The notes below the pieces were generated by a model. The model saw only the letters and a program-made list of their open reading frames with translations. It made no database searches and was not told the origin of the DNA. Shown piece by piece: positions 1 through 49,991 of a stretch of 64,000 nucleotides of DNA. Origin of the DNA: Deltaproteobacteria bacterium. Its GTDB lineage: Bacteria > Myxococcota_A > UBA9160 > UBA4427. Where the stretch lies: contig JAJDAN010000021.1 of NCBI GenBank assembly GCA_029261855.1, forward strand, positions 319,923-383,922. The letters run 5' to 3'. The translations under genes and the position numbers were made by a program. Positions within the stretch are counted from its first letter, which is position 1, and the number at the start of each line of letters is the position of its first letter.

Positions 1-930
1 CTGCTTCTCCGCCTGCCCGCCTATTACCTGCGCGACCTCGTGCCCATCGTCGGCTTCGCTGCCGCCTTCTTCACGTTGGGAACCGCGGGTCGCTGGCTCG
101 AGCTGCTGGCCGCCAAGGCCGGCGGTCTCTCGCCCCAACGCATGTCGGCCCCCCTGCTCGTCACGGCCCTGTTCCTGACGGTCGTCACCTTCTTCCTCAA
201 CGAGACCTGGGTGCTCGATGCCAGCCGCCGCTGGGATCAACGCGACGAACTCAGCAACCCCATCCGCTTTCGAGAGGGCTCGTTCTGGTACCAGCGCGGA
301 CGCACGATATACAACATCGCCGACGCTGACCGAGCCACGAACACCCTGCGGGGAGTGCGCATCTTCGAGCTCGACGAGCGCGGCCGCCTGATGCGGAGCA
401 TCGAGGCGCCCACCGCCACCCTCGACGCGTCCGACCACTTCGTCTTCCAGGCGCCGCGAGTCCGCCGCTTCGACCCCGTCGACCGCGCCCGCGCGCCCGA
501 CATCGAGGACCACCTCGAGGCCGCGTCCCTGTCGCTGCAGGACGAGAGCGGTGGAGCGCTCATGAACGCGGACCTGTCCACACTCTCGGTCCGCGAGCTG
601 TCCCAGGTGATCGGCCAGCAGGCGGCCGCGGGCGAGCCCGCAGCGAGGCCGCGCGCTCTCCTGAGCGCGCGACTCGCCGAGCCCTGGGTGGTCCTGCTCT
701 TCGTGCTCGTCGCCGTTCCGTTCGGTGTCCGCGCTGAACGCGGCGGTAGCCAGGGAATGACCGTCGGCGCGCTGTACGGGATGGCTGGGGTCACCGCCTT
801 CTTCGCGCTGCGCAGCCTCGTCGGCACCCTGACGAGCAGCGGCCTGCTCCCTCCGGTGCCGGGCCCCTGGGTGCTTCTCGCCGTCTTCGGCGCGGCCGGC
901 ACCTGGCGCTACGCGAGGATGCCCTCTTAG
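1..930 (+). CDS. LptF/LptG family lipopolysaccharide export permease (5' end missing)
   Basis: The reading frame is open at the left edge, so the first membrane helices are missing. The visible 309 residues show a hydrophobic segment near the start (AAFFTLGTAGRWLELLA), then LFLTVVTFFLNETW, a soluble beta-rich middle of about 150 residues (from WDQRDELSNP to about residue 210) and three C-terminal hydrophobic helices beginning at EPWVVLLFVLVAVPFG. This order of helices, periplasmic jellyroll, then helices is typical of the YjgP/YjgQ (LptF/LptG) family, the inner-membrane permeases that work with LptB to extract lipopolysaccharide. The segment VAVPFGVRAERGG matches the conserved loop between C-terminal helices of the family. 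I cannot say whether it is LptF or LptG because the paralogue, if adjacent, lies outside the window. Confidence 0.85.
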   Translation: MLLRLPAYYLRDLVPIVGFAAAFFTLGTAGRWLELLAAKAGGLSPQRMSAPLLVTALFLTVVTFFLNETWVLDASRRWDQRDELSNPIRFREGSFWYQRGRTIYNIADADRATNTLRGVRIFELDERGRLMRSIEAPTATLDASDHFVFQAPRVRRFDPVDRARAPDIEDHLEAASLSLQDESGGALMNADLSTLSVRELSQVIGQQAAAGEPAARPRALLSARLAEPWVVLLFVLVAVPFGVRAERGGSQGMTVGALYGMAGVTAFFALRSLVGTLTSSGLLPPVPGPWVLLAVFGAAGTWRYARMPS

Positions 931-1026
931 GACGGTACTCGTTCGGATGTAGGCTTGGGTGTAACCCTCGAGTCGGCATCGACATCGATTGCTTCGACCT
1001 GGCTCGAACAGTGGGAGCACCGCGCG

Positions 1027-3840
1027 ATGGCGCCCAGGAACCACAGGCTCGCGGTGGCGGAGGACTCGTGGACCCTTCGCCTCGGGGCGTTCCTGACCCT
1101 CTTCGGCATCCTGGCGGCTCACGCACTTCTCGAAACGGCACGGGACGCGCTGTTCCTCTCGAACATTCCCGCCGAGCGTCTGCCCTGGGTGTATCTGCTG
1201 ATCGCGGTCGTTGCCCTCGGGATCGCGAGGCTCTCGCATTCCGGTGCGGACAAGGGTCGCCACCGCGAGCGACTGACCGCCGTGCTGCTACTGGCCTCGC
1301 TCGTCACGCTCGCGTTCTGGTGGTGGACAGACCGCTCGGGTCCCTGGGTCTTCTACTCGCTCTACGTCTGGTCCGGGGTGATCTCGAGCATCATCGTCGT
1401 CAGCTTCTGGCTGCTGCTCGGCGAGCTGTTCACGATCACCGAGGCCAAGCGCTTCTATGCATCGATTGCCACGGGCGGATCCATCGGCGCCCTGGCGGGC
1501 TTCGGGCTCGCCACGGGACTGACCTTCTACATCGCCGCCGATTGGCTGCTGCTGGTATCCGCCTCCTTCTTTGCGGTGAGCGCCCTCGGCCCGGCCTTGC
1601 TGCTGCGCCCGTCTGGAACCACAGCGCCCACGACCGAGGCCGCGAAGCCGAGCGTCGCTCCGAGCGACTCCGACGCCGGCTCCAACAGCTTCTCGGCTGG
1701 CATCGCCGCGATCGCGTCTCATCCCTACGCGTGCCGTGTGGCCGTTCTCGTGGGACTGTCGACCCTGACGCTCACCTTCGCGGACTTCTTGTTCAAGAGC
1801 ACGATCGCGCACCAGGTCCCCGCAGACCGGCTCGGAACCTGGTTTGGCGGCATCTACCTCGCCCTCAACCTGGGCTCGTTGGGGATGCTCGTATTCGGCG
1901 TCACGCCGCTCATCCGTCGCCTCGGCATCCATCGGTCCCTCGCCGTACTGCCCGCTGCGATGGGGTTGGCGGCGGTCGGTTTGCTCGTCGGTGGCGCCCT
2001 GTTGCCGGTCCTGGCCCTGAAGGCCGCGGATGGCACCCTGCGCTACTCGCTCCAGAAGACCGCGCAAGAGCTGCTCTATCTGCCGATGCCGTCGGAGCTT
2101 CGCGCCCGGGTAAAGAGCTTCATCGACATTGCCGGCCAGGCGGGCGCGAAAGCCGTCGCATCGATCGCCATCCTGTTGGTCGTGGGCCTTCCCTCACACG
2201 ATCTGTTGTTGGCGGGTGGCGTCCTGATCCTGGCATCGGGCTGGGCCTGGGCCGCGATCGAGATTCGAGGCGCCTATCTCGACGTCTTCCGTCAGACCCT
2301 GAGCGAAGGGACGATCGCAACGCGAATCGATCACCCGGATCTCGACCTGGCCTCTCTCGAGACGCTCATCCGCGCCCTGAACCACCCCGACCCCCGTCAT
2401 GTCCTGGCGGCCCTGGCGCTATTCGAGGAGCGAGCCCGGGTCGATCTGATACCGGCGCTCATCCTCTACCACCCGGCCCCGGCGGTCGTCACCCGGGCGC
2501 TCGACCTGTTTGCGACGTCCGGACGCAACGACTTCCTCATGGTCGTCGAGAACCTTCTCGAACACGAAGACGCGGGCGTTCGCGCGGGCGCGGCGCGCAC
2601 GCTGTCGGCGACCTCTCCGAATCGGGAACGACTTCAGCAGCTCGCAGACAGCGACTGCCCGTGCATACGGGTCAGCGCGGTATCCGGCCTGCTGGTCCAC
2701 GGCTGGATCGACGAGTCCGACGCCAGCGTCGAGTTCGAGCGAGCCGTCCGCGACGCGGAGCCCGAAGCTCGCCTCGCGCTCGCCAACGCGAGCAAGCTCG
2801 CGTATTCCACGCTGCACCGCGAGCCGCTGGGGCAGCTGAGCCGCGACAGCGACCCGGAAGTCCGGCGCGAGGCAGTTCGAGCCATTCGCGCCAGCGACGA
2901 CCCCTGGTACACGCCGCAACTCGTGACACTGCTGGCCGACCGTATGGTTCGCGAAGAGGTCCGCCTGGCTCTGCTCGGACGCGGAGACGCCGCCCTGCAA
3001 GCGCTCTCCCGTGCGCTCGAGGACAGCGAAGTAGCGATTGCCGTCCGTCGACACATCCCGCGGACCCTGTCGCGCTTCGCCACCCCCGCCGCAGCCGAGA
3101 TCCTGCTGCAGTCCCTGGAACGACCTCTCCCCGGAATGGTCCGCTACAAGGTCCTGCGGGGTCTCGCACCGCTGCTGCGGGGCCCGATCGCACCGCTCGT
3201 CGACCTCGCGCCCGTGGCGCGGGAGGTCGAGTCGACCATCGATCGGGCGCTGCAACTCTTGCGCTGGAAGATCGAGATCGAGGAGGGCCACCGGGAGGAT
3301 GCCTCGCGCGCCACGTCCGGCGGCGCGTTGCTCGGGGAGCTGCTGTGCGACAAGGAGCGGCTCGCCATCGAGCGCATCTTCCAACTCCTGCAGCTGCTGC
3401 ATCCGGAGGAGGACTTCCGTGGAATCCTCGCCGGGGTCGACAGCGGCAGTCGTGCCGACCAGGCGAGCGGAATCGAGCTGATCGAGAACCTGCTCTCACC
3501 CGCGATGAGCCGCGCTCTGCTGGCTCTCCTCGATTCCGGTCCGGAGGCGACCCGCTGGCAGCGCGCCGTGGACCTGCGTCGGTCGGTCGTCCCCTATGCG
3601 GCGCTGCTGCACGAGCTGACCGAAGACGCCAGCGAGAGCGTTCGCGCCTTCGCGCTCCATCACCAGTCCGAGCTCGGCCTGACTGCCGCGGACGGATCGC
3701 CCGCGGACGTCGACGCCGAGCGGGCGAACCCGCTGGCGCGACTTCTCGACCAGGCCCTGGGACTGGTCGAGCGACTCCCCGAGGCGCGCATGCGCCGGCC
3801 CCTGCTCTCGCAGCCCGCGCCGGGAGATTCCCGTGGCTGA
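1027..3840 (+). CDS. NTT (ATP/ADP translocase family) membrane protein with C-terminal HEAT repeats
   Basis: A 937-residue protein. The first ~410 residues form about twelve hydrophobic helices resembling the NTT/ATP:ADP antiporter family (HALLETARDALFLSNIP near the start, GGSIGALAGFGLATGL, YSLQKTAQELLYLPMP). A low-complexity loop (TTAPTTEAAKPS) splits the two halves. Residues ~420-900 are soluble helical repeats of HEAT type (HPDPRHVLAALALFEERA, HEDAGVRAGAARTLSATS, SDPEVRREAVRAIRAS). I chose the ATG at 1027 because GGGAG lies 10 bp upstream; an in-frame TTG at 955 would add 24 poorly hydrophobic residues. The stop overlaps the next gene by 8 bp. In parasites such transporters exchange ATP and ADP; in free-living bacteria the substrate is not settled, so the transport substrate here is inference. 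The HEAT part may be a cytosolic binding scaffold. Confidence 0.85.
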   Translation: MAPRNHRLAVAEDSWTLRLGAFLTLFGILAAHALLETARDALFLSNIPAERLPWVYLLIAVVALGIARLSHSGADKGRHRERLTAVLLLASLVTLAFWWWTDRSGPWVFYSLYVWSGVISSIIVVSFWLLLGELFTITEAKRFYASIATGGSIGALAGFGLATGLTFYIAADWLLLVSASFFAVSALGPALLLRPSGTTAPTTEAAKPSVAPSDSDAGSNSFSAGIAAIASHPYACRVAVLVGLSTLTLTFADFLFKSTIAHQVPADRLGTWFGGIYLALNLGSLGMLVFGVTPLIRRLGIHRSLAVLPAAMGLAAVGLLVGGALLPVLALKAADGTLRYSLQKTAQELLYLPMPSELRARVKSFIDIAGQAGAKAVASIAILLVVGLPSHDLLLAGGVLILASGWAWAAIEIRGAYLDVFRQTLSEGTIATRIDHPDLDLASLETLIRALNHPDPRHVLAALALFEERARVDLIPALILYHPAPAVVTRALDLFATSGRNDFLMVVENLLEHEDAGVRAGAARTLSATSPNRERLQQLADSDCPCIRVSAVSGLLVHGWIDESDASVEFERAVRDAEPEARLALANASKLAYSTLHREPLGQLSRDSDPEVRREAVRAIRASDDPWYTPQLVTLLADRMVREEVRLALLGRGDAALQALSRALEDSEVAIAVRRHIPRTLSRFATPAAAEILLQSLERPLPGMVRYKVLRGLAPLLRGPIAPLVDLAPVAREVESTIDRALQLLRWKIEIEEGHREDASRATSGGALLGELLCDKERLAIERIFQLLQLLHPEEDFRGILAGVDSGSRADQASGIELIENLLSPAMSRALLALLDSGPEATRWQRAVDLRRSVVPYAALLHELTEDASESVRAFALHHQSELGLTAADGSPADVDAERANPLARLLDQALGLVERLPEARMRRPLLSQPAPGDSRG

Positions 3841-37647: not shown

Positions 37648-39228
37648 ATGCCGAAGACCCTGCTACTGGCGGACGACAGTGTCGTGATCCAGAAGCTCGT
37701 CGGACTGAGTTTCGCCAACGAGGACGTGGAGCTCGTCACCACGGACAACGGTGATGACGCGCTGAAGCGAGCCCGGGAGATCCACCCGGATCTCGTCCTC
37801 GCCGACGTCGTGATGCCGGGCAAGAACGGCTACGAGGTCTGTCAGGCCATCAAGGAAGATCCCTCGATCAACACCACTCCGGTGCTGTTGCTGACCGGTA
37901 CCTTCGAGGCCTTCGACGAGGACCGCGCGCGCCAGGTCGGATCCGACGGTCACATCACGAAGCCCTTCGAAGCACAGGGGCTCGTGGACCGGGTCACCGA
38001 CCTGCTTTCACGACCGCGCCCGGCCCCAAAGCCGATCGCCTCGCCTGAAGCCCAGTCCGCCGCCCAGCCCGCCGCTGCATCGGCCGCGCAGCCCGCGGTC
38101 CCCGAGCTGCCGACGGCGCCCGCCGCAGAGCCCGACGACGCCTACGACTTCTTCGACGACGAGGTCCAGGAGCTTGCCGCGCCGGAAGCCCCGGCCGTCC
38201 CGGCGGCCGCCATGGCTGCTCCGGATGATTCATTCGAGTTCGGCGAAGACCTCGACGCGCTCTCGCTCACGTCCCCGGGTGGAGACACGTCCGAGACCCT
38301 CGACACGAACTTCGAGCTCGACGAGGACACGCCTGACGATCTCACGATCGCAGTCGTGGCCGAGACGCCCATCGCAACCCCGCCGCCCGTCCCGATCGAT
38401 CTGGACGCGCCGGACGCCACGCGAGTCGCCATGGGCGAAACGATGATCACCGACGACTTCGGTGCGATGCCCGCTTCGCCGCCCGCATCCGCAGCCCAGG
38501 TCGCCTCCCTGGACGAGCGCCTCGCGGAGGCCGCCCCGGCGACCGCGGTACCGGCCGTCCCCGCAGCGCCGACGCCGGTTTCCGATCCCGCTCAGACGAT
38601 GCTGGCGGACGACCTGTTCGCGGACCCGGTCTCGACGGAGGCGGCAGCTCCGACGCCGCCGCCGATTCCCGCACCGGCGGCTCCCGAAGCCGCGACGCCT
38701 GCGACGGGCGAGCTGCCGCCGGCGATGGACTCCGGCTTCGAGTTCGGCTTCGACGACGCCAACCCCGGTTCGGCGGAACCCGTGGTCGCAGCGACCGCAG
38801 AGATCGAAGAGGACCTCGTCGACGACGAGTCGGACCCGTTGGCCGGCATGGCGTCGCCGCGGGCCGTCGCTTCCTTCGAAGCGGAGGCCGACGCCGACGC
38901 ACCCGATCTCGCGGATGCCGCCGGCTCGACCCACAGCGGCTACGACGTCTCCGCGTCGGACCTCGGCAACCCGCTCGGCGACGCGGACGGCAGTCCGTCG
39001 CTCGCGACGCCCGTCGCAGCCGCGGCGCGCAGCGACCTCTCGCCGCTGATGCAGGAACGCATCCACGAAACCCTCGAGAAGATCGCGTGGGAGGCGTTCG
39101 CGGACGTTTCCGACACCATCGTCCGCCAGGTCCTGCAGCGGGTGGAGTCGATCGTCTGGGAGGTCGTGCCCCAGATGGCCGAAGCCCTGATCCAGGAAGA
39201 GATCCGGCGCATGAAGGGCGAGGAGTAG
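37648..39228 (+). CDS. RomR-like response regulator with long disordered linker and conserved C-terminal helix
   Basis: A 526-residue protein. Residues 1-125 are an intact receiver (LLLADDSVVIQKLVGLSF; phosphoacceptor in DLVLADVVMPGKNGYEV; HITKPFEAQGLVD). Then about 330 residues of Ala/Pro/Asp/Glu-rich disorder with recurring acidic blocks (DAYDFFDDEVQELA, DSFEFGEDLDALSL, GFEFGFDDANPG). The last ~60 residues form a conserved amphipathic helix (ETLEKIAWEAFADVSDTIVR, VESIVWEVVPQMAEALI, QEEIRRMKGEE), which resembles the PopZ-type C-terminal helix and the output end of RomR polarity proteins. No DNA-binding domain. Likely a polarity or motility regulator; inference. A weak promoter (GATAAT at 37575) may lie upstream. 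Confidence 0.8.
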   Translation: MPKTLLLADDSVVIQKLVGLSFANEDVELVTTDNGDDALKRAREIHPDLVLADVVMPGKNGYEVCQAIKEDPSINTTPVLLLTGTFEAFDEDRARQVGSDGHITKPFEAQGLVDRVTDLLSRPRPAPKPIASPEAQSAAQPAAASAAQPAVPELPTAPAAEPDDAYDFFDDEVQELAAPEAPAVPAAAMAAPDDSFEFGEDLDALSLTSPGGDTSETLDTNFELDEDTPDDLTIAVVAETPIATPPPVPIDLDAPDATRVAMGETMITDDFGAMPASPPASAAQVASLDERLAEAAPATAVPAVPAAPTPVSDPAQTMLADDLFADPVSTEAAAPTPPPIPAPAAPEAATPATGELPPAMDSGFEFGFDDANPGSAEPVVAATAEIEEDLVDDESDPLAGMASPRAVASFEAEADADAPDLADAAGSTHSGYDVSASDLGNPLGDADGSPSLATPVAAAARSDLSPLMQERIHETLEKIAWEAFADVSDTIVRQVLQRVESIVWEVVPQMAEALIQEEIRRMKGEE

Positions 39229-39312: not shown

Positions 39313-40176
39313 ATGTCGCCTTCCTCTTGCTGTCCGCCGGTATCCACGTGGCGCCCGCTCGTCGAGCTGGCCCTGGCCGAGGACGTCGGCTCCGGCGACG
39401 TGACGTCGGCCCTCACCATTCCCGCAGTCGCCCGGGGGCGAGCGCGCATCGAGGCGCGAGAACCCGTAGTGGTGTGCGGCCTGGATATCGCGGAGGAAGT
39501 GTTCCGGCAGGTGGATCCCGGCCTCACCCTGGAACGACAGGTGCGCGAGGGAGAGCAGGTCGCAGAGGGAACCGCCCTGCTCCACGTCGAGGGCTCGGTC
39601 CGCTCGATCCTGACGGCCGAGCGCACCGCGCTCAACTTCATGACCCGGATGTGCGGGGTCGCCATGCATGCGCGGCGCTTCGTCGAAGCCGTCTCCGGCA
39701 CCGGAACGGCCATCGTCGACACCCGCAAGACCCTGCCCGGCTGGCGCGTGCTGGACAAGTACGCCGCGGCGACCGGTGGCGCCGTCAATCATCGCGTCGG
39801 GCTGTTCGACGGCATCCTCCTCAAGGACAACCACATCGCGGCAGCGGGAGGAGTCACCCCGGCCGTGAAGTCGGCGGTCGCCGGTGCTCCGGCGGGGCTG
39901 CGGGTGCAGGTGGAGGTGCAGTCAGCCGCGGAAGCTGCCGAGGCCGTGGCGGCTGGCGCCGACTTCCTGCTGCTCGACAACTGCCCCCCCGCGGTCTGCC
40001 GGGAGATCGCGGCGAACGCTGCGCCGGGCGTCCTGCTCGAATCGTCGGGGGGCATCGCGCTCCACAACGTGCGCGAGCATGCGGAAGCGGGCGTCCACCG
40101 GATCTCCATCGGAGCCATCACGCATTCGGCCCCGTCCGCGGACCTGGCCCTCGAGATGATCGCGTCCGAGGCATGA
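39313..40176 (+). CDS. nadC: Nicotinate-nucleotide pyrophosphorylase (quinolinate phosphoribosyltransferase)
   Basis: A 287-residue enzyme that converts quinolinate and PRPP to nicotinate mononucleotide in NAD synthesis. Motifs: EDVGSGDVTSAL, ERTALNFMTRMCGVA, the substrate loop DTRKTLPGWRVLDKYA, GAVNHRVGLFDGILLKDNHI and LLDNCPP with SSGGIALHNV. It overlaps birA by 4 bp (ATGA), and birA overlaps coaX, so three cofactor genes are translationally coupled. Confidence 0.96.
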   Translation: MSPSSCCPPVSTWRPLVELALAEDVGSGDVTSALTIPAVARGRARIEAREPVVVCGLDIAEEVFRQVDPGLTLERQVREGEQVAEGTALLHVEGSVRSILTAERTALNFMTRMCGVAMHARRFVEAVSGTGTAIVDTRKTLPGWRVLDKYAAATGGAVNHRVGLFDGILLKDNHIAAAGGVTPAVKSAVAGAPAGLRVQVEVQSAAEAAEAVAAGADFLLLDNCPPAVCREIAANAAPGVLLESSGGIALHNVREHAEAGVHRISIGAITHSAPSADLALEMIASEA

Positions 40177-41183
40177 ACGATGGTGCCAGCCGGGTGCTCG
40201 AGACCCTGCGATCGGCTCGCGACAGCGACCGCGAGGGGCGCTGTTCTGGAGAGGCCCTGTCGGAAGCACTCGGCGTGTCCCGGGCAGCCGTGTGGAAGCA
40301 GGTCGAGAGCCTGCGACAACGCGGGTACGAAATCGAGGGAGCGCCCGGCGGTGGCTATCGCCTGACCGCCCTGCCCGACCGCCTCTACCCGGAAGAACTC
40401 ACGGCCGGCTGTACCCGGCGTTGGGTGGCGCGCGAAATCCACTACTTCGAGGAGATCGACTCGACGAACCGGCTCGCGTTCCAGCTGGCACGGGACGGGG
40501 CTCCCGCGGGTTCCGCGGTCGTCGCCGAGAAACAAACTGCCGGACGTGGACGCCTCGGTCGCTCGTTCTTCTCACCCGCCCACCAGAATCTCTACACGTC
40601 CATCATCCTGCGGCCCGAGATCACGATCGCCGAGGCGCCGACCCTGATCCTCGCGGCGGCCATCGCCGTCGCCGAAACCCTCGGCGAGCCCGAGCGGGTC
40701 GAGATCAAGTGGCCCAATGACGTCTTGATCGATGGACTGAAGACGTCGGGCATCCTGATGGAGATGAGCGCAGAAGCCACCCAGGTGGGATTCGCGATCC
40801 TCGGGATCGGCGTGAACCTGAACGTCGAGCGTGACGAGCTGCCCGAGGACTTCCGCAGCCGCGCGACCAGCCTGCGGTCCGCTGGAGGCGAGCGCGTCGA
40901 CCGGGTCGGCTTCGCGAGGCGACTTTTCGGTATCCTCGAGGACGTGCTCGACCGTCACACGGCTTCCGGCTTCGCAGCGATCCGACCCCGCTTCGACCCG
41001 TGGTTTCGCATGCCGGGCCGCGCCATCGAGGTCCATGGCATGCACGGCGACATCCTGCGCGGAATCGCCCGGGGAATCGCATCGGACGGCGCCCTCGAGC
41101 TCGATCTCCCCGACGGCAGCACGTCCCGGGTGATTGCGGGAGACGTCACCCTGTCCAAGCGCAACGAGGAAGCGACCCCATGA
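40173..41183 (+). CDS. birA: Bifunctional biotin-protein ligase / biotin operon repressor
   Basis: A 336-residue protein. An N-terminal winged HTH (GEALSEALGVSRAAVWKQVE, GAPGGGYRL) precedes the ligase domain with IDSTNRLAF, the biotinyl-AMP loop AEKQTAGRGRLGRSFFSP, KWPNDVLIDGLKTSGIL and the C-terminal SH3-like domain (GDILRGIARGIASDGALEL). The HTH shows it can also act as a biotin-responsive repressor. It overlaps nadC and coaX by 4 bp each; birA-coaX is a common arrangement. Confidence 0.95.
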   Translation: MNDGASRVLETLRSARDSDREGRCSGEALSEALGVSRAAVWKQVESLRQRGYEIEGAPGGGYRLTALPDRLYPEELTAGCTRRWVAREIHYFEEIDSTNRLAFQLARDGAPAGSAVVAEKQTAGRGRLGRSFFSPAHQNLYTSIILRPEITIAEAPTLILAAAIAVAETLGEPERVEIKWPNDVLIDGLKTSGILMEMSAEATQVGFAILGIGVNLNVERDELPEDFRSRATSLRSAGGERVDRVGFARRLFGILEDVLDRHTASGFAAIRPRFDPWFRMPGRAIEVHGMHGDILRGIARGIASDGALELDLPDGSTSRVIAGDVTLSKRNEEATP

Positions 41184-41983
41184 CCGTCCTGCTGGTGATC
41201 GACATCGGCAACACCAACATCTCGCTCGGCGTCTTCGACTACGAAGCCGATGCCGCGGCCGAGCCGGGCAAGGGCGACCCGGACCTGCACTGGCGTCTCA
41301 GCACCCACCGCGAACTCACCTCGGACGAGCTGACCGTCACCCTGCGTGCCTTGTTCTCCCAGGAAGGACGAGACGTCTCGGAAGTCACCGACGTGATCGT
41401 CTCCAGCGTCGTGCCGCCCCTGCTGCCCATCTGGGAGCGGGTCACCACGAAGCTCTTCTCCCGGGAGCCACAGATCGTCGGGCCCGGCATGCGCACCGGG
41501 ATGCCCGTCCGCTACGAGAATCCGCACGAGGTCGGCGCCGACCGGATCGTCAACTCGGTCGCGGCCTTCGAGCTCTTCGGCGGGCCGGTGATCGCCGTCG
41601 ACTTCGGAACCGCCACCACCTTCGACTGCGTCTCGGCCAAGGGCGAATACATGGGGGGATGCATCTTCCCGGGCATCCACATTTCCATGGACGCGCTGTT
41701 CGAGCGCACCTCCAAGCTCCACCGGATCGAGATCGCACGTCCCAAGCAGGTGATCGGGAAGACGACGACCGGCGCCCTGCAGTCGGGACTGCTCTACGGC
41801 TACGCGGGCATGGTCGATTCGATGATCGAGCGCATTCGTCCGGAGCTGGGAACCAAGACCGCGCGGGTGATCGCGACGGGCGGCCTGGCGGGGCGTATCG
41901 CCAGCGAGAGCAAGCACATCGAGGAGGTCGTTCCGTTCCTCACCCTCGAGGGTTTGCGCCTCCTGTTCGAGAAGAATCGCTAG
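41180..41983 (+). CDS. coaX: Type III pantothenate kinase
   Basis: A 267-residue kinase of the acetate/sugar-kinase superfamily that phosphorylates pantothenate, the first committed CoA step. Motifs: LLVIDIGNTNISLGVF (phosphate 1), the substrate motif GPGMRTGMPV, ENPHEVGADRIVN with the catalytic Asp, VIAVDFGTATTFD (phosphate 2), YMGGCIFPGI and VIATGGLAGRI. This isoform is feedback-insensitive and monovalent-cation dependent in the family. It overlaps birA by 4 bp. CoA steps CoaBC and CoaD are encoded at 12392-14314. Confidence 0.96.
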   Translation: MTVLLVIDIGNTNISLGVFDYEADAAAEPGKGDPDLHWRLSTHRELTSDELTVTLRALFSQEGRDVSEVTDVIVSSVVPPLLPIWERVTTKLFSREPQIVGPGMRTGMPVRYENPHEVGADRIVNSVAAFELFGGPVIAVDFGTATTFDCVSAKGEYMGGCIFPGIHISMDALFERTSKLHRIEIARPKQVIGKTTTGALQSGLLYGYAGMVDSMIERIRPELGTKTARVIATGGLAGRIASESKHIEEVVPFLTLEGLRLLFEKNR

Positions 41984-42016: not shown

Positions 42017-43363
42017 CTAGCGCGGCTCCGTCACGACGACGACCGCCGCCTGTCCCTTTGCGACGGTCAGCTGAAAGTCGCGCCGCACCGTCAGCCCCGG
42101 GCCCGTGACCGACACGCTGACGGTGTGCTCGCCCGGCTCGACGATCGCCCGCGAGATCAGGACGTGGTCCGCCAGCATCGTCCACGAACGGGTGTCGGGC
42201 TTGTCGAGACCGACCAGGGCGGCCTCGGTCCCGAGAGCCGCCAACAACCCGATCACGGACCCGAGGCCGCCACCGGCCTGTTGGCCGGCGATTCGCGCGC
42301 CCTCGGCGGCCGCGGCCCGGGTGATCATGCGGGTGAGCGCCGCGCCGATGATGCGCGGCTTCAGGCGGTCGTATTCCTTGCGGATGTCCGCGCCGATGCT
42401 CGCCACGCGATCGATCGGCACCTTGCGACCGTCGATGTCGACGGTGGCGTCTCGGGCGTGACTGCCGGACGGAACCAGGTCCGGATAGACCACCACCTTG
42501 AAGACGCTGCGGGCGAGAATCTGGGTGTTGCCCGTGATGAAGGTCCCGGCGATCCCGATGGCCGCGCCAATGGGCATGCGCTCGGGCACCTTGTGGGGCA
42601 CGCGCCCGAGAGACACGACCGTGATGATCTCGGTGGGCGGTGGCGAGCCGCCGGGCAGCGGGCCGTCCCCGAGCAGCTCCCGGATTCGCGGGCCCCGATA
42701 CGGGTTGGGTCCCGCCAGGCGCGTCACCGGTTCGCGCAGCGTCGGAAGCACGCCCGCCGCCATGGCTTCCTCGTAGTAGCGGAGCGCGCGGTTTCCTTCT
42801 CCCAGCCGCTCGAAGGTCAGGCCAGCCAGGTAGGACCCGAAGACCCCCGGTCGTTCGAGGCCGACGCTCTCGAGGTACTCACGCATGACCGTGAAGCTGC
42901 GGGCTTCGACGGCGGCGCCGCTCCAGTTCCCGAGCGCGAGATAGTTGAGCATGTTCACCGAGTTCAGCGCGAGACGCTCGGCGGGTGGTGTCCGATAGTC
43001 CTTCGCGCTGTCGCTGTAGATGAACTCCCCGATGGTGCCGCCGACGTCGTTCTTGTAGTCGAGCAGCTCGATCTCGGTCTCGCCGGCGCCCAGGTCTCGG
43101 GCGCTGCCCTTGTAGTCTTCGATCGCCTGCAGCAGCGAACCGCGCTCGAGCACCGCGAGCGATTGCTCGGAGTCCCACGACTCCGGCAGCTCGTCGATCG
43201 AGCCGACGTCGAGGATCTCGTTCACGTCGGCGATGCCGCCGCGGTAGTCCCCGACGGAAACCTGCTCCGTCGCGGACTCGATCCGCTCGGAATAGGTCGC
43301 GCAACCGCTCCCGAACAGCGAGAAGAGCAGCAGCGATGCGATCAGCAGCGCCGAACGAGACAC
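42017..43363 (-). CDS. Lipoprotein of COG3014 type, TPR-like
   Basis: A 448-residue lipoprotein: signal SRSALLIASLLLFSLFGSGC gives Cys21 in LFGSGC. The N-terminal half has helical TPR-like segments (QSLAVLERGSLLQAIEDYKG, ALGNWSGAAVEARSFTVMRE, GSYLAGLTFERLGEGNRALR). The C-terminal half has a hydrophobic glycine-rich patch (PIGAAIGIAGTFITGNTQIL) and a beta-rich end (EPGEHTVSVSVTGPGLTVRR). The family is typically found next to LpoB, as here (6 bp apart), so a periplasmic role linked to peptidoglycan synthase activation is likely but unproven. Confidence 0.82.
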   Translation of the reverse strand: MSRSALLIASLLLFSLFGSGCATYSERIESATEQVSVGDYRGGIADVNEILDVGSIDELPESWDSEQSLAVLERGSLLQAIEDYKGSARDLGAGETEIELLDYKNDVGGTIGEFIYSDSAKDYRTPPAERLALNSVNMLNYLALGNWSGAAVEARSFTVMREYLESVGLERPGVFGSYLAGLTFERLGEGNRALRYYEEAMAAGVLPTLREPVTRLAGPNPYRGPRIRELLGDGPLPGGSPPPTEIITVVSLGRVPHKVPERMPIGAAIGIAGTFITGNTQILARSVFKVVVYPDLVPSGSHARDATVDIDGRKVPIDRVASIGADIRKEYDRLKPRIIGAALTRMITRAAAAEGARIAGQQAGGGLGSVIGLLAALGTEAALVGLDKPDTRSWTMLADHVLISRAIVEPGEHTVSVSVTGPGLTVRRDFQLTVAKGQAAVVVVTEPR

Positions 43364-43369
43364 CCGAAG

Positions 43370-43984
43370 CTACTTCTTGACGGCCTTCGAGCGCGTGACT
43401 TCGTTCTGGAACTCGATGATCCCGGTTTCGATCTCGACCACCTGCAAGAACAGGCTGTACTGGATGCGCCGCAGTCCGCTCAGCTTCTCGTCCACTCCGC
43501 TGATCTTGCCGGTGAAGAAGTACTCGACGCCCAGCTGCTTGCCCAGGCGCTGGGCCGAAGCGGGATTGTACGCCGCGCCCTGCTGCATCCCGACTTCGCG
43601 GACCAACGCGTCCTGACGGGCCCGATCGACGACACGAACGTCGCCCGTGTTCACCAGGGCCGTCTCGATCGACGAAAGCAAGGTCGCCATCTGGTCGTCG
43701 ATGTGCTGGGTCGTCTCGTTCGTGATGGGCCAGATCGCCACCAGGGGACGGTCCTTCTTCTCGACCACCCCAATCCAGAAGCGAGACGCTTCGAGGTGCT
43801 TGAGGTAGTCGGCCACCAGATAGTTGATGTCCTCACGGTCGAGCTTCACGCTCAGCGCGGGAGCGTCCATGTCGGGATTATCGGTCCCCTCCCCGCCGCG
43901 CATCGCCTGAGGCGCGCAGCCCAGAGCGAAAATGACTCCGGCGAGAAGGACGACGCGTAGCGTGCGACGGCTTGCGGACAGCAT
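43370..43984 (-). CDS. lpoB: LpoB-family penicillin-binding-protein activator lipoprotein
   Basis: A 204-residue lipoprotein with signal RRTLRVVLLAGVIFALGC (acylated Cys23). The mature part has RPLVAIWPITNETTQHID, GDVRVVDRARQDALVREVG and the LpoB-type GKQLGVEYFFTGKISGVDEK, VVEIETGIIEFQNE. In enterobacteria LpoB spans from the outer membrane to activate PBP1B. It abuts the stop of the upstream small lipoprotein gene and is 6 bp before the COG3014-type gene, so three lipoproteins form one operon. Confidence 0.88.
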   Translation of the reverse strand: MLSASRRTLRVVLLAGVIFALGCAPQAMRGGEGTDNPDMDAPALSVKLDREDINYLVADYLKHLEASRFWIGVVEKKDRPLVAIWPITNETTQHIDDQMATLLSSIETALVNTGDVRVVDRARQDALVREVGMQQGAAYNPASAQRLGKQLGVEYFFTGKISGVDEKLSGLRRIQYSLFLQVVEIETGIIEFQNEVTRSKAVKK

Positions 43985-44344
43985 CTAGAAGAAGCCTCCA
44001 ATGGCTGCGAACGGTAGGAAGACGATATCGAGAGGGACGGTCAGGACCATCAGCGGGACCTGCGCCGCCGGCGCGATCGTCGAATTCGCGACGCCACGGG
44101 TCATGCCGAACAACAGCTTCGAGTTGTACCAGGGCTTGGGCTCGGGTTCCCGCGGTTGGTAGCGGGGCTCGATGCGGCCGTCCTCCGAGGTCTGGGTCTG
44201 GGTCGAATCCGTCGCCGAGCGCTCCGGTACATCCGACGAACAGGCCAGGGTCCCGAACGAGGCCCCAAATGACAGGGTCATGACCCACAGCACTGCCACG
44301 ATCCGCAGTCCACGCGGGACTCCTTGCGACGCGAGTTGCAGCAT
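43985..44344 (-). CDS. Small lipoprotein, first gene of the lpoB operon
   Basis: A 119-residue protein I do not recognise. The signal GLRIVAVLWVMTLSFGASFG is followed by TLAC, giving Cys37. The mature part is polar (PERSATDSTQTQTSEDGRIE), then has RYQPREPEPKPWYNSKLLFG and two hydrophobic C-terminal stretches (APAAQVPLMVLTVPLDIVFL). GGAGGAAG precedes the ATG at 44344; a longer upstream frame is less likely. Its stop touches the lpoB start. The C-terminal hydrophobic part suggests insertion into or pairing with a membrane. Confidence 0.75.
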   Translation of the reverse strand: MLQLASQGVPRGLRIVAVLWVMTLSFGASFGTLACSSDVPERSATDSTQTQTSEDGRIEPRYQPREPEPKPWYNSKLLFGMTRGVANSTIAPAAQVPLMVLTVPLDIVFLPFAAIGGFF

Positions 44345-44541
44345 TGGTCTTCCTCCTCTCTTCCTACGCGATTTCCGACGGCGGGAATCGTACCCGCAGC
44401 CTGGCCCCCCAAACACCTCACCTGACCCGGGGTTTCACCCCTCGGGCAATCAAGTTCGGCCGGGTGCAGGCCGACTGTTGAAGGTGGCGGCGTGCCGACC
44501 GCAGGGAAGACCTGCGGACCAGCAGAGGGGTTTGTACACCA

Positions 44542-45597
44542 ATGGCTTCAACGGGCAAGATCCGGCTCAGCCTGTCGCCCCAGGCGGAGAAGTACGTCCG
44601 CAAGGACGCGCCCGTCGAAGCCCGGCGAATGGCCGCTCGCGGCGCCCTGCCCCTCGAGCCCGTCGAGCTCGCCACCGTGTTGTTCGCACTCCTCCACGAC
44701 CCCGACACCGAGGTGAAGTCACGCGCCCGGGAGAGCCTCGAGGAGCTTCCCGAACACGTCACCTTCGCGGTGCTCGCCGGTCCGTCGCACCCCTCGGTGC
44801 TCTCCCATCTGGCCCGGGTCCACCACGACAGTGAGCCCCACTGCGAGCGGATCGCGCTGAATCCCCACACCGGAGACGACACCCTCGCCTACCTCGCCAC
44901 CCTGCCCCTGCGGCGGGTCATCGACATCATCAGCAACAACCAGGAACGGCTGCTCCAGTCCGACGAGATCGTCGAGGCGCTCGGCGCCAACCCACTCACG
45001 GGTCGCGCGGTGATCGAGCGCATCCTGACCTTCCTCGGCGTCGATGAGGAAGAAGAAGACGAGCTCGACGCGAACGTCAGCAGCAGCGACGCCGAGGCTG
45101 CCATCCTCGCGATGCTCGGCGATGGCATGGCCGACGTCGCGAAGCACCTCGCCAGCGACGAGGACATCGACGACGACGAGCTGACCGGGAATCTGTTCGC
45201 CGCCATCCAGAAGATGTCGGTGATGCAGAAGATCAAGCTGGCCCGGGTCGGGGGCAAGGAGGCGCGCTCGCTCCTCATCCGTGACCGCAACAAGATCGTG
45301 GCGAGCTCGGTGGTCTCGAGCCCGAAGATCACCGATACCGAGATCGTGCAGATCGCCAAGTCCCGCAACGTCTCGGACGACATCCTTCGCATGATCGCCC
45401 GCAACCGCGAGTGGACGAAGCACTATCAGGTCAAGTCCGCGCTGGCCACGAACCCGAAGTGCCCCCTGTCCGAGGCCATCAAGTTCCTGAACTATTTGCA
45501 GGAGAAGGAGCTGCGGAGCATCATGAAGAGCAAGGACGTGCCTTCAGCGATCGCAACCCACGCTCGTCGGATCCTGGGCAAGAAGGGCAAGGTGTAG
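44542..45597 (+). CDS. Helical-repeat (HEAT/DUF2336-like) protein upstream of the MglA-like gene
   Basis: A 351-residue soluble protein made of short helical repeats (PVELATVLFALLHDPDTEVK, SRARESLEELPEHVTFAVLA, SHPSVLSHLARVHHDSEPHC, RNVSDDILRMIARNREWTKH). A central acidic stretch (DEEEEDELDANVSSSDAEAA, LASDEDIDDDELTG) divides two repeat blocks. The end is basic (ATHARRILGKKGKV). Resembles the HEAT-like proteins found beside Ras-like GTPases in deltaproteobacteria; I do not assign a name. It is 6 bp upstream of the MglA-like gene, so the two are an operon. Probably a scaffold for that protein. Confidence 0.72.
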   Translation: MASTGKIRLSLSPQAEKYVRKDAPVEARRMAARGALPLEPVELATVLFALLHDPDTEVKSRARESLEELPEHVTFAVLAGPSHPSVLSHLARVHHDSEPHCERIALNPHTGDDTLAYLATLPLRRVIDIISNNQERLLQSDEIVEALGANPLTGRAVIERILTFLGVDEEEEDELDANVSSSDAEAAILAMLGDGMADVAKHLASDEDIDDDELTGNLFAAIQKMSVMQKIKLARVGGKEARSLLIRDRNKIVASSVVSSPKITDTEIVQIAKSRNVSDDILRMIARNREWTKHYQVKSALATNPKCPLSEAIKFLNYLQEKELRSIMKSKDVPSAIATHARRILGKKGKV

Positions 45598-45603
45598 TCG
45601 GCC

Positions 45604-46581
45604 GTGGCGCATCTCACACCGGACGGAACACAAGTCAACGCACGCATTGCCTTCTGGGGCATCGCGGGAGCCGGCGTCTCGTCGAACCTGCGCGTCATCT
45701 ACGAGAAGCTGCGCTCGGATCACCGCGGAGAGTTGCAGCAGATCCCGACGCGACTCGACCCGACGACCCACTACGAGCTGCTCCCCATCGAGCTCGGCCA
45801 GGTCAACGGCTTGCGGACCCAGCTGCAGGTGATCGCGGTGCCCGGCGGCCCCGAACACGCACCCACGCGGAAGCAACTCCTCGACCACGTCGACGGCGTC
45901 GTCTTCGTGGTGGATTCGCGACCAGACCGCGTAGACGCCAATCTGGAATCCCTGGCCGAGCTGCGCCAGGCCCTCGCCGCCTACGGCCACAGCCTCGACG
46001 AGCTCCCGGTCGTCGTGCAGTACAACAAGCGGGACGCCAGCGACCCGTACGTCATCGAGGAGCTTCACCGCAAGCTCGACATTCCCCAGGCCGCCGTCTT
46101 CGAGGCCGTCTCGAGCAGCGGCAAGGGCGTTCTGCAGACCCTCACGACGATCTCGAAGCGGGTGATCCGGGTCCTGCGGGAATCCGACCTGGAACCCGAG
46201 CCCGAACCGGAGGTCCGGTCCCAGCCCCCGCCCGCGCCGGAACTCGAGCCGCCCGCGCGCAGCCACGTCGACCTGATGGAACAAGCCATCCTCGCGGAGG
46301 GAGGCCTGGCCGACGATGACGACGGACAGGACGCCGCCCTCGCCGCGCTCGACGCTCCTCTCGACGAGCCCTGGGACTCCTCCCCCGGCCGGGACCCGCG
46401 ACACAAGTCGGCGGACGGAGCGCGCATCGGCGCGGACTTCGAAGTCGTCTCCGTCGGGCAGGCCGAGGTCGCCGGTCAGCGGAGCGTGAAGCTGCCCCTG
46501 GTCCTGGGCAACTCCGAAGGCGAGACCGTCACCCTGCGTCTCACCGTCTCGCTGGATCCCCTCCTCGACGGAGACGAGTGA
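45604..46581 (+). CDS. MglA-like small-GTPase-fold protein with degenerate P-loop
   Basis: A 325-residue protein whose first ~190 residues align with MglA-family Ras-like GTPases: TRLDPTTHYELLPIELGQVN, HVDGVVFVVDSRPDRVDANL, VVVQYNKRD (G4 intact, residues 141-144) and AVSSSGKGV (G5). The P-loop, expected as GxxxxGKTT, reads GIAGAGVSSN (residues 19-28): the catalytic lysine is Val. The G3 motif is VPGGPEH instead of VPGQ. It is therefore probably a pseudo-GTPase. The C-terminal ~130 residues are an acidic Pro/Glu linker (EPEPEPEVRSQPPPAPELEP) and a small beta-rich end (EVAGQRSVKLPLVLGN). GTG start at 45604; the stop overlaps the next ATG by 1 bp. Confidence 0.8.
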   Translation: MAHLTPDGTQVNARIAFWGIAGAGVSSNLRVIYEKLRSDHRGELQQIPTRLDPTTHYELLPIELGQVNGLRTQLQVIAVPGGPEHAPTRKQLLDHVDGVVFVVDSRPDRVDANLESLAELRQALAAYGHSLDELPVVVQYNKRDASDPYVIEELHRKLDIPQAAVFEAVSSSGKGVLQTLTTISKRVIRVLRESDLEPEPEPEVRSQPPPAPELEPPARSHVDLMEQAILAEGGLADDDDGQDAALAALDAPLDEPWDSSPGRDPRHKSADGARIGADFEVVSVGQAEVAGQRSVKLPLVLGNSEGETVTLRLTVSLDPLLDGDE

Positions 46582-48869
46582 TGCCGCGGCGAGTCGGCAT
46601 CTTCGGGACCTCCGAGGAGTCGCTGCAGCTGCTCCGCCTGCTGGCGGTGAACCCCCAGATCGAGATCACGGCTGTCTGGGACGACAACCCCGAGGCGGCG
46701 CTGCATCTTGTCCGGCGGGCCGCGCCCGAGGTGGCGTCCCTGCTCGAGTCGCTGCTCACGGTCGACGCCGAGGGCTTCCGCAACGCCGGACGACTCGACG
46801 CCGTCGTCGAGGGAGGCGCTTCCCCGGGCTTCGCCACGCGCTACCCCGATTCCGCCGAGCAAGGTCTACAGATCCTGTCTCCCCTGACGGCTCGCCTGCT
46901 CTGGGGGTACGAGACCGCGACACGCGACCGCAAGAACGACCTCCTGACCGCACTGTCGGAAGTCGTCGAGTCGGTCGAGCTGACCATCGACTCCGACGAG
47001 CTGTTCGCGCGCATGCTCGAGATCGCCGTGGGCGTCACCGGTGCGGATGGTGGCTCTCTGATGCTGCTCGACCCAGCGCGGCGTGAGCTGACGATTCGGG
47101 TCGCCATCGGCGTCGAACGCGAGCTGTGGCCGAAGATTCGCGTGCCCGTCGGCGACGGGATCGCGGGACGGGTCGCCCAGGACGCGCGCCCCCTGCTGAT
47201 CAACGGGCGAGCCGACCGAGGCGCCTTCCAGATCGTGCGCGAACGCATGGATGTGGAGTCCGCGCTCTGCGTTCCGCTCGTCTCCGACGGCGGCGTGCTG
47301 GGTGTCCTCAACCTCCATCACAGCAGCCACCGAGACGCGTTCAGTGAAGACGACCTGCGCTTCATGGAACGGGTGGCGCGGCTCGACGCCCAGATCATCA
47401 CCCGGGCCGAAGAACACCAACTGCTCCGCAACCAGGCCGCTCGCTATGACACCGTCCGCAGCGTGCACGAAATCCTGGGCGGCGCGAATCCGCTGCTCGA
47501 GCGATTGCGCGCCCTGTGCCTCTTCACCGCGGAACGGGTGGGCGACGGTATCGCGACGATCTACCTCGGCGGCAGCGAGGACGGCGATCTGCGGCTGGCG
47601 GCGACCTCGCTCGAGGGCGGCGGCTTCGGCGGCGAGTACCGCGTGGTCGAGGGTCAGGGTATCGACGGCGGCGTCGCCCAGAGCAAACGCCCCGCGTTCC
47701 TGCGCCGCGACGACGGCAGCCTGGCCTACGTCTCCCTGCCCCTGTTGGCGGGAGACCGGCTCGTGGGTGTGCTGTCACTGCAGACCGGCGCAAGACCTCC
47801 GCGCGGCCGCGGAGCCGAGGAGACCCTGCTCGAGCTCGCGGCAGCCACCGCGGATGGCATCGCCCAGTCGGATCGCGAGATGCGCATGTCCGTCCGCGCG
47901 AACCGCATCAACGCCATCAACGAGACCGGGATCCGCATGATCTCGAGCAAGCAGCTCAATGAGGTCGTACGCCTGGCCACCTCGTCGGTCGCCATGATCC
48001 TCGAGGCGGATCACGCCATCTTGCGACTTCAGGACGACGAGACGAAGCGCTTCGTCATCCGCTCGTACTTCGGGGCGGCGGACGGTCAGGTACAGGAGCG
48101 ACTGTTCAAGCTGGACAAGCAGGTCTGCGTGGAGACGATCCGCAAGCGCACGGCCCTGCGTGTGCCCGACCTGGCGGACCACCCCGGCTTCGAGACCTGG
48201 CAGGGCGAGTTCCGGTCCTTCCTGTGCGCTCCGATCCGAGTGGAAGGACGCGTCGTCGGCACCCTGTCCGCCTATGACAAGATCGTGACCGACCACTTCT
48301 ACGCGAGCGCCTTCGACGACGACGACCTGCAGATCTTCACGAAGTTCTTGAGCTACGTGGAACGCGGGATCGACGGCGCCCTCTCCCATTCGGCGGCGCG
48401 ATTGCACCGCAGCTTCGACCAGGAGACCGGCCTGCCCAACGCGAGCTATCTGCAGCAGCGTATCCAGGAAGAGGTCGCACGGGCCGCGGGACGCGACGGG
48501 GCGCTCGCCATCGCCCTGTGTCGAATCGAGAACCTCGACGAGATCATCGGGCGGGTGAACCCCGCCCACGCGCACCGCGTCACGCTCCGGACCGCGGAGG
48601 CCCTGCGCGCGCACCTCCGGGACTTCGACGTCCTCGGCAAGACGGGCGCGGGCGAGTTCACGGTGCTGCTGCCCGAGCCGGGTCCCTCTCCGGGCGAACG
48701 GGTCTTCGAGCTAGCGCGCGCCGTGGCCGACGAGCTCTCGAAGGATGAGGCACTCAATGAACCGGTCCGGGTCGGACTGGCCTTCGGCTACGCGGTCCAC
48801 CCGGTGGATGGCCGCGATCGGGACGCGCTGCTGCGGATCGCATCCGAGCCGCGCATCCGCATGGTCTGA
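46581..48869 (+). CDS. Multi-GAF signalling protein with degenerate GGDEF domain
   Basis: A 762-residue cytosolic protein. The N-terminal ~115 residues form a Rossmann-like or NTP-binding-like strand-helix unit (RRVGIFGTSEESLQLLRLLA, ITAVWDDNPEAALHLVRRAA). Three GAF domains follow (about residues 130-290, 300-450 and 455-610; VGDGIAGRVAQDARPLLING, GGVAQSKRPAFLRRD, VCVETIRKRTALRVPDLADH). The C-terminal domain has diguanylate-cyclase fold features (DQETGLPNASYLQQRIQEEV) but the active loop reads GAGEF rather than GGDEF, so it likely lacks synthesis activity and may bind c-di-GMP or GTP, or only fold. ATG at 46581 overlaps the MglA-like stop (TGATG). Confidence 0.85.
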   Translation: MPRRVGIFGTSEESLQLLRLLAVNPQIEITAVWDDNPEAALHLVRRAAPEVASLLESLLTVDAEGFRNAGRLDAVVEGGASPGFATRYPDSAEQGLQILSPLTARLLWGYETATRDRKNDLLTALSEVVESVELTIDSDELFARMLEIAVGVTGADGGSLMLLDPARRELTIRVAIGVERELWPKIRVPVGDGIAGRVAQDARPLLINGRADRGAFQIVRERMDVESALCVPLVSDGGVLGVLNLHHSSHRDAFSEDDLRFMERVARLDAQIITRAEEHQLLRNQAARYDTVRSVHEILGGANPLLERLRALCLFTAERVGDGIATIYLGGSEDGDLRLAATSLEGGGFGGEYRVVEGQGIDGGVAQSKRPAFLRRDDGSLAYVSLPLLAGDRLVGVLSLQTGARPPRGRGAEETLLELAAATADGIAQSDREMRMSVRANRINAINETGIRMISSKQLNEVVRLATSSVAMILEADHAILRLQDDETKRFVIRSYFGAADGQVQERLFKLDKQVCVETIRKRTALRVPDLADHPGFETWQGEFRSFLCAPIRVEGRVVGTLSAYDKIVTDHFYASAFDDDDLQIFTKFLSYVERGIDGALSHSAARLHRSFDQETGLPNASYLQQRIQEEVARAAGRDGALAIALCRIENLDEIIGRVNPAHAHRVTLRTAEALRAHLRDFDVLGKTGAGEFTVLLPEPGPSPGERVFELARAVADELSKDEALNEPVRVGLAFGYAVHPVDGRDRDALLRIASEPRIRMV

Positions 48870-48881
48870 GCGCGAGAAGCG

Positions 48882-49991
48882 CTAGAGCAGATCCGCCAGG
48901 CTGCGCGCCGGGATGCCCGCGCCCTCGGCGGCGCCTTCGCACACCACCTCTCCTCGCCACACGTTCGCGCCCTCGCCCAGCGCCGGGTCGGCCTGGACTG
49001 CCGCGACGATGCCCTGCTCGGCGATCTGCTGGACGTACGGCAAGGTGGTGTTGGTGAGCGCGAAGGTGGAAGTGCGGGGCACCGCGCCGGGCATGTTGGC
49101 GACCCCGTAGTGGACCACGTCTTCCACGATGTAGGTCGGATCGGAGTGCGTCGTCGGGTGGATGGTCTCGATGCAGCCGCCCTGGTCGACCGCCACGTCG
49201 ACGACCACCGAGCCCGCCTCCATGCGCGCCACCAGCTCCCGGGAGACCAGGGTCGGGGGACGCCGGCCTTGCACGTAGACGGCACCGATCACCAGGTCAC
49301 TCGTCACGACGGAACGCTCGATGTTCGCCGGGTTCGAGTAGAGGGTGTTGAGCTCGCCGCGAAACAAGTCGTAGACGTAAGACAGGCGCGGCAGATTGGT
49401 GTCGAGAACGTCGACCTCGGCGCCCAGGGCATGGGCGACGCGCAAGGCGTTGATGCCGACGGTACCCGCGCCGAGAATCGTGACCCGACCTCGCGCGACA
49501 CCCGGCACGCCGCCGAGCAGCAATCCCTTGCCGCCGTTCTCCTTCTGCAAGAGGTTCGCGCCCACCTGGGCGGCCAGCCGCCCCGCCACCTCGCTCATGG
49601 GCGCGAGGATGGGAAAGGACCCGTCGCGGTTCCGCACCGTCTCGTAGGCGATGGCGTAGACATCGGCCGCCTGGAGGGCGGCGGTCAGCTCGGGCGCCGC
49701 CGCCAGGTGCAGATAGGTGAACAGGATCTGCCCGGCACGCAGAAACTGGACTTCGTCCGCATTCGGTTCCTTGACCTTGACGACGAGATCCGGCTCGGAC
49801 CAGGTCTGCTCGGCGGACGCCAGGCGAGCGCCGACCTGCTGGTAGGTGTCGTCCGGGAAGCCGCTGCCCACACCCGCACCGGCTTCGACCCAGACCTCGT
49901 GGCCCGCCTTGACGAGGGCGCGTACGCCGTCGGGAACCATCCCGACCCGGAACTCGCGGTCCTTGCTCTCTCTCGGGACACCGATCCGCAT
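48882..49991 (-). CDS. ald: Alanine dehydrogenase
   Basis: A 369-residue cytosolic NAD-dependent oxidoreductase (L-alanine + NAD to pyruvate + ammonia). MRIGVPRESKDREFRVGMVP is the family start; VVKVKEPNADEV has the substrate lysine, LFTYLHLAAAPELTAAL the catalytic histidine region, and VTILGAGTVGINALRVAHAL the NAD loop. HYGVANMPGAVPRTSTFAL is conserved near the C-terminus. ATG at 49991. Converges on the GAF gene (12 bp apart). Confidence 0.95.
   Translation of the reverse strand: MRIGVPRESKDREFRVGMVPDGVRALVKAGHEVWVEAGAGVGSGFPDDTYQQVGARLASAEQTWSEPDLVVKVKEPNADEVQFLRAGQILFTYLHLAAAPELTAALQAADVYAIAYETVRNRDGSFPILAPMSEVAGRLAAQVGANLLQKENGGKGLLLGGVPGVARGRVTILGAGTVGINALRVAHALGAEVDVLDTNLPRLSYVYDLFRGELNTLYSNPANIERSVVTSDLVIGAVYVQGRRPPTLVSRELVARMEAGSVVVDVAVDQGGCIETIHPTTHSDPTYIVEDVVHYGVANMPGAVPRTSTFALTNTTLPYVQQIAEQGIVAAVQADPALGEGANVWRGEVVCEGAAEGAGIPARSLADLL

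Follow-up and report, generated by a model that had tools for sequence, protein, structure and literature searches.

What remains of a small GTPase once the residues for binding and hydrolysing GTP have been replaced, and what could such a protein still be used for? The question is raised by a three-gene locus of a Deltaproteobacteria bacterium (GTDB lineage Myxococcota_A; UBA9160; UBA4427), in which a protein related to MglA is encoded between a HEAT-like protein and a GAF-domain protein. The window analysed here is a stretch of 64,000 nucleotides (positions 319,923 to 383,922 of the forward strand of contig JAJDAN010000021.1, assembly GCA_029261855.1), and the source assembly is a 6.96-Mb draft in 91 contigs. 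We favour, with a probability of about 0.58, the reading that a former switch was eroded stepwise until it became a pseudo-GTPase subunit on a HEAT scaffold, with a GAF/pseudo-GGDEF sensor as modulator.

All three genes lie on the + strand. The first (44542..45597, ATG start) encodes a HEAT/LRV-like alpha-solenoid protein of 351 amino acids, and the second (45604..46581, GTG start) encodes the MglA-like pseudo-GTPase, with 325 amino acids and an Arf match at 2.4e-5. The third gene (46581..48869), whose ATG lies within TGATG, encodes a GAF sensor of 762 amino acids with an N-terminal Rossmann-like segment, three GAF domains and a degenerate GGDEF domain. The HEAT-like and MglA-like genes are separated by a 6-nt gap, and the MglA-like and GAF genes overlap by 1 nt; the coordinates and spacing given in an earlier first-pass annotation of the locus were all correct on re-check. 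Since the flanking genes (43985-44416 and an alanine dehydrogenase gene, 48882-49991) are both on the other strand, the trio looks like a three-gene operon. A promoter scan of the operon found none, and the scan was uninformative.

When the MglA-like protein was searched with phmmer, the best PDB matches were the MglA proteins of M. xanthus (6h17, E 1.7e-38) and T. thermophilus (3t12). Residues 7-193 align to M. xanthus MglA without gaps, so that a common residue numbering can be used. In the P-loop GIAGAGVSS (residues 19-27, 45658..45684) Lys25 is replaced by V25 (45676-45678), although the P-loop glycines and Ser26 are also retained. In switch I (P53-T54, 45760..45765) a proline stands in place of Arg53, the intrinsic arginine finger of MglA, while Thr54, its Mg-binding threonine (PMC6876712), is kept. 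The G3 motif reads VPGG (residues 79-82, 45838..45849), with Gly82 in place of the catalytic Gln82, and the G4 motif NKRD (residues 141-144, 46024..46035) is intact. The AlphaFold model has the MglA fold (template modelling (TM) score 0.94 on the length of 6h17) and adds a C-terminal four-strand beta domain (residues 278-316, 46435..46551), predicted with a local confidence score (pLDDT) of about 91 on a low-confidence linker. This domain is conserved across the family, including outgroups (L077, L078) and members without a P-loop. The ungapped alignment and the predicted structure thus bear out what the first-pass annotation had read from the sequence, namely an overall MglA alignment with NKRD kept, Val for the P-loop lysine and Gly for the G3 glutamine; the replacement of Arg53 by P53 had been missed.

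Measured against the G1 consensus GxxxxGK[ST], the window protein has GIAGAGVS, and instead of the G3 TVPGQ and G2 arginine finger that mark group 1 of the MglA family (PMC4316618) it has AVPGG and DPT. In fold and sequence the protein is of the MglA lineage, yet the group 1 hallmarks in G1, in G3 and at the arginine finger are missing. Judged by its sequence, it fits the definition of a pseudo-GTPase given in PMC5593906, in which the fold is present and one or more G motifs are missing.

To see how far these replacements extend, motifs were counted in 77 orthologues of the class, the window's included. Gln82 and the arginine finger are each absent in 76 of the 77. Lys25 is absent in 19 (T in 7, V in 4, I in 4, A in 2, P and L in 1 each), and another 20 keep the lysine but have lost the following Ser/Thr, with R, L, E, K, Q or A instead. 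The first-pass annotation had held that homologues with an intact GKT would overturn the pseudo-GTPase assignment. Formally such homologues exist, as Lys25 is kept in 58 of the 77 and GK[ST] is intact in 38; however, these are proteins of other species, almost all devoid of the hydrolytic residues too, and the window genome and its one congener in the same genus both have Val25. The proposal that this MglA-like protein is a pseudo-GTPase is well supported at the level of sequence, and more strongly than originally put, with Gln82 and Arg53 lost nearly class-wide and Lys25 lost repeatedly while purifying selection acts.

The state of Lys25 has changed at least 11 times on a maximum-likelihood tree of the HEAT protein, which is independent of the trait, and at least 9 times when the most decayed genus and L067 are left out; on a tree of the G domain built without the P-loop columns the count is 10. 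These parsimony counts give no direction of change. The erosion goes furthest in genus g11, most members of which show neither a P-loop nor NKxD (the alignment of the P-loop columns being uncertain there) and still have their HEAT gene as well as the beta domain at the C-terminus.

A direction is suggested by five genomes of two small outgroup phyla (L077, L078 and L215-L217). Their operons share with the window the gene order and the HEAT family, the C-terminal beta domain could be detected in three of them (L077, L078 and L217), and a GAF-GGDEF partner in two (L078 and L216). Unlike the window protein, their MglA-like proteins keep GKTT and RTLF in all five genomes, and TVPGQ in all four that cover it; they look like working GTPases. 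L078 also has the nadC-birA-coaX order found upstream of the window's operon, together with an EF-G-like gene, ahead of its intact HEAT-MglA operon. Because the outgroup pairs are intact and L078 shares this neighbourhood, we infer that the ancestral state was probably an intact GTPase and that the changes at Lys25 were mostly losses. No description of these outgroup HEAT-MglA operons was found in the literature searched. As a separate observation, another outgroup operon (L087, 3643-8488) comprises an EF-G-like gene, a long MglA with intact motifs and a GAF-GGDEF gene, but no HEAT gene, and no HEAT homologue was found when it was looked for in that genome.

Despite the lost motifs, the MglA-like gene is maintained by purifying selection. 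For the window and its congener, which share Val25, the ratio of non-synonymous to synonymous substitution rates (dN/dS, Nei-Gojobori) of the G domain is 0.138, compared with 0.134 for the HEAT gene and 0.184 for the GAF gene. Further pairs without Lys25 on either side gave 0.10-0.20, and most Lys25-bearing pairs gave 0.06-0.20; the synonymous rate may be underestimated in these figures owing to codon bias. Given such low ratios a decaying gene can be excluded. That the gene is decaying or an assembly artefact might have been suggested by the rapid drift of its motifs and by the 91-contig, probably metagenomic draft, but this idea is refuted by the dN/dS of 0.138, by the same Val in the independent genome of the congener and by open frames in dozens of genomes.

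An MglA-like orthologue was found in about 34 of the 40 relatives searched, and in most of the neighbourhoods fetched the order is HEAT, MglA-like, GAF-GGDEF. The synteny proposed earlier as a check thus recurs across the class, and a trio with these substitutions that recurs so widely is more than chance. The coupling to a multi-GAF protein, which the first-pass annotation had treated as part of the switch, stands in so far as it is widely conserved, but it is not universal: in genera g2, g9, g11 and g6 and in genome G031 the HEAT and MglA-like genes are kept and no orthologue of the GAF gene was found anywhere in the genome. Because these five groups keep the pair without it, the HEAT and MglA-like genes form the core of the locus, with the GAF gene as a frequent but dispensable third member. 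Loss of the GAF gene is not strictly tied to loss of the P-loop, as two genera without it keep Lys25.

Two variants of the locus were also seen. At L196 (G122, 762-3423) the HEAT and GAF genes nearly abut and no MglA-like gene was detected between them; this member of the class may have lost the pseudo-GTPase altogether. In genus g17 (L038, 6248-7930; L176, 4081-4869) the gene that follows has been shortened and has diverged to a GAF-family fusion of the N-terminal segment with a GGDEF end, and the genomes of L038 and L176 have longer homologues elsewhere (35-36% identity).

Of the three proteins the HEAT-like one is in most cases the best conserved, with orthologues at up to 1e-179, and a search of 377 Myxococcota genomes detected its family in 331. 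Outside the window's class an MglA-like gene adjoins the HEAT gene in only 1 of 25 loci (L198). The model of the protein, which is based on six sequences, is all-helical (25 helices, pLDDT 86) and forms an alpha-solenoid. Its structural matches are ARM/HEAT solenoids of a generic kind (Z up to 7.2); Foldseek returned nothing under 1e-3, only generic solenoids, and a profile of the family had no match among PDB sequences. The Pfam match to HEAT_2 lies under the cut-off (E 0.005, 17.5 bits versus 27.7), and three orthologues tested gave no Pfam match. The name HEAT given earlier therefore holds for the predicted fold class and not as a Pfam assignment. This unnamed family is a likely partner of MglA-type proteins.

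In the 762-residue partner we confirmed the three GAF stretches already described (PF01590, 1e-38), but that description was incomplete at both ends. The C-terminus carries a GGDEF domain (residues 612-755, 48414..48845; PF00990, 4.2e-13) with the degenerate motif GAGEF at 48645-48659. Since GG[DE]EF is absent from every orthologue that covers the motif, L078 included, the domain is unlikely to make cyclic di-GMP (c-di-GMP). The N-terminal segment (residues 1-112, 46581..46916) is conserved in orthologues and Rossmann-like by sequence pattern, and its residues 2-60 give a weak profile match to the dinucleotide-fold enzyme 3nkl (E 0.003). The top PDB matches of this segment were designed armadillo repeats; they arose via a short motif, each stretch of which is insignificant alone, and were rejected.

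Together these observations can be accommodated by the following model. The ancestor would have been an active signalling module of a HEAT protein, an MglA-type GTPase and a GAF-GGDEF protein. First to go, in the ancestor of the class, would have been Gln82 and the arginine finger as the residues for hydrolysis; P-loop residues would then have been lost many times independently. What is left, the G-domain fold with its conserved C-terminal beta domain, most likely acts as an adaptor subunit that is constitutive and independent of nucleotide; it would dock on the HEAT solenoid and be stabilised by it. In M. xanthus the MglA mutants G19A, K25A, T26N, Q82A/R, N141A, K142A and D144A gave no detectable protein (PMC3000849); a protein with V25 and G82 would therefore need some other stabilisation, and the adjacent HEAT solenoid, found throughout and more strongly conserved, is the best candidate. 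For the GAF/pseudo-GGDEF protein we propose that it binds a small ligand and then acts on the complex through contact, not through c-di-GMP synthesis. The loss of GTP binding and hydrolysis in the window protein, the HEAT/MglA-like complex and the ligand sensing are thus all putative, as deduced from sequences and models. More tentatively, and at somewhat less than even odds, the module may have shed both of its enzyme activities, so that a pseudo-GTPase and a pseudo-diguanylate cyclase work through protein contact, with the HEAT protein as scaffold. Each stage, from the intact GTPase through hydrolysis-dead to binding-dead forms, would then be represented by living relatives. If this is true, one could test directly in what order a GTPase switch is lost and what follows from the loss.

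Several points weigh against the preferred model. The retention of NKRD, Thr54 and the P-loop glycines in the window protein is odd for a simply empty pocket, and the Asn and Asp of G4 are kept in 15 of the 19 Lys-less orthologues. Loss of the glutamine alone is no proof of lost hydrolysis. Co-variation of the HEAT and MglA-like distance matrices is not discriminating, the partial correlation after coaX and birA being 0.27 and not above that of gene pairs with no expected contact. The GAF partner is absent in several lineages, and the genomes of the class were for the most part probably assembled from metagenomes. The main rival is a GTP-locked protein like eukaryotic Rnd (class ii), which binds GTP without hydrolysing it (PMC5593906): guanine nucleotide would still be bound, if only weakly or with the HEAT protein's help, and expression or the GAF sensor, not hydrolysis, would set the switch. 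NKRD, Thr54, the P-loop glycines and Ser26, all kept in the window protein, would suit this explanation, as would the retention of Lys25 in 58 of 77 orthologues while Gln82 and Arg53 are nearly all gone. However, replacement of Lys25 by V, I, T, A, P or L in 19, and of the Ser26 equivalent in 20 more, does not. Nor was a consistent compensating basic residue found in the Lys-less members, where enrichments at other positions are confounded by relatedness, and one genus is mostly without recognisable pocket motifs. We regard a GTP-locked state as rather unlikely.

The two further explanations have much lower probability. It is very improbable that the protein regulates motility or polarity by acting on the canonical MglA/MglB system, say as a decoy or by forming heterodimers. 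It has the same fold as MglA, and the genome does contain a canonical MglA (C42, GKTT and TVPGQ) with an adjacent roadblock protein, as well as a third paralogue with intact motifs (C54). But the roadblock (MglB-type) gene at C42 is the only one found in the genome, and none lies near the operon, so the pseudo-GTPase is an orphan regarding MglB; orphan members without MglB are known in the MglA family (PMC4316618). The neighbours of the operon are metabolic (nadC, birA, coaX, alanine dehydrogenase), with no link to pili or gliding. The new polarity switch envisaged by the first-pass annotation accordingly finds no support beyond the family name. It is very improbable, too, that the protein is a working GTPase to which the HEAT or GAF protein gives the missing catalytic groups in trans. 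Group 1 Rup GTPases also lack the G3 glutamine, and a glutamine supplied in trans has been suggested for them (PMC4316618); the partners here are co-conserved. However, the P-loop lysine and the Mg-binding Ser/Thr have been repeatedly lost as well, and several lineages keep the MglA-like gene without a GAF gene genome-wide.

Upstream of the operon lie nadC, birA and coaX (type III pantothenate kinase; 39313-41983), followed, between coaX and the HEAT gene, by a divergent group on the - strand (42017-44416) that encodes three likely lipoproteins, one of them LpoB-like (PF13036, 5.6e-24). Directly upstream of nadC-birA-coaX is a gene (37648-39228) for a receiver-domain protein of 526 amino acids that has a helical tail and a long linker rich in acidic residues and proline; its layout is reminiscent of RomR-type regulators of MglA, and homologues occur close to the HEAT operon in about 15 relatives' loci. 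A reading of the locus as a defence system was discarded, as PADLOC gave no match.

How, then, does the preferred reading, a pseudo-GTPase subunit on a HEAT scaffold, compare with known systems? With the group 1 MglA proteins of M. xanthus and T. thermophilus the window protein shares the fold, the ungapped G-domain alignment, NKxD and Thr54 of switch I; it differs in the replacement of Lys25, Arg53 and Gln82, in the extra C-terminal beta domain and in having a HEAT gene, not MglB, as partner. The Rup group 1 GTPases (PMC4316618) resemble it in lacking the G3 glutamine but belong to another family with other neighbours, and that paper reports no loss of their P-loop lysine. A likeness by analogy only is offered by the importin-type HEAT/ARM solenoids, in which a helical-repeat solenoid is paired with the small GTPase fold of Ran; there is no sequence relation, and the structural matches are generic (Z 5-7). 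In the open-access full-text literature we found no HEAT-MglA pair and no bacterial MglA-family pseudo-GTPase of this kind. Few pseudo-GTPases have been described so far, and those cited here are eukaryotic: p190RhoGAP pG1/pG2, CENP-M and the fungal dynein LIC (class i) and Rnd (class ii) (PMC5593906). Like the window protein they combine a GTPase fold, maintained by selection, with the loss of G motifs, and a scaffold or adaptor role has been proposed for them as well. The family described here differs in its bacterial MglA lineage, in its repeated origin within one operon family and in having intact relatives extant. If our inference holds, this single conserved operon provides a graded natural series of intact outgroups, a hydrolysis-dead majority and binding-dead lineages, in which the use of a small GTPase after switching ends could be tested with paired orthologues, and in which evolution appears to turn a molecular switch into a non-enzymatic protein part.

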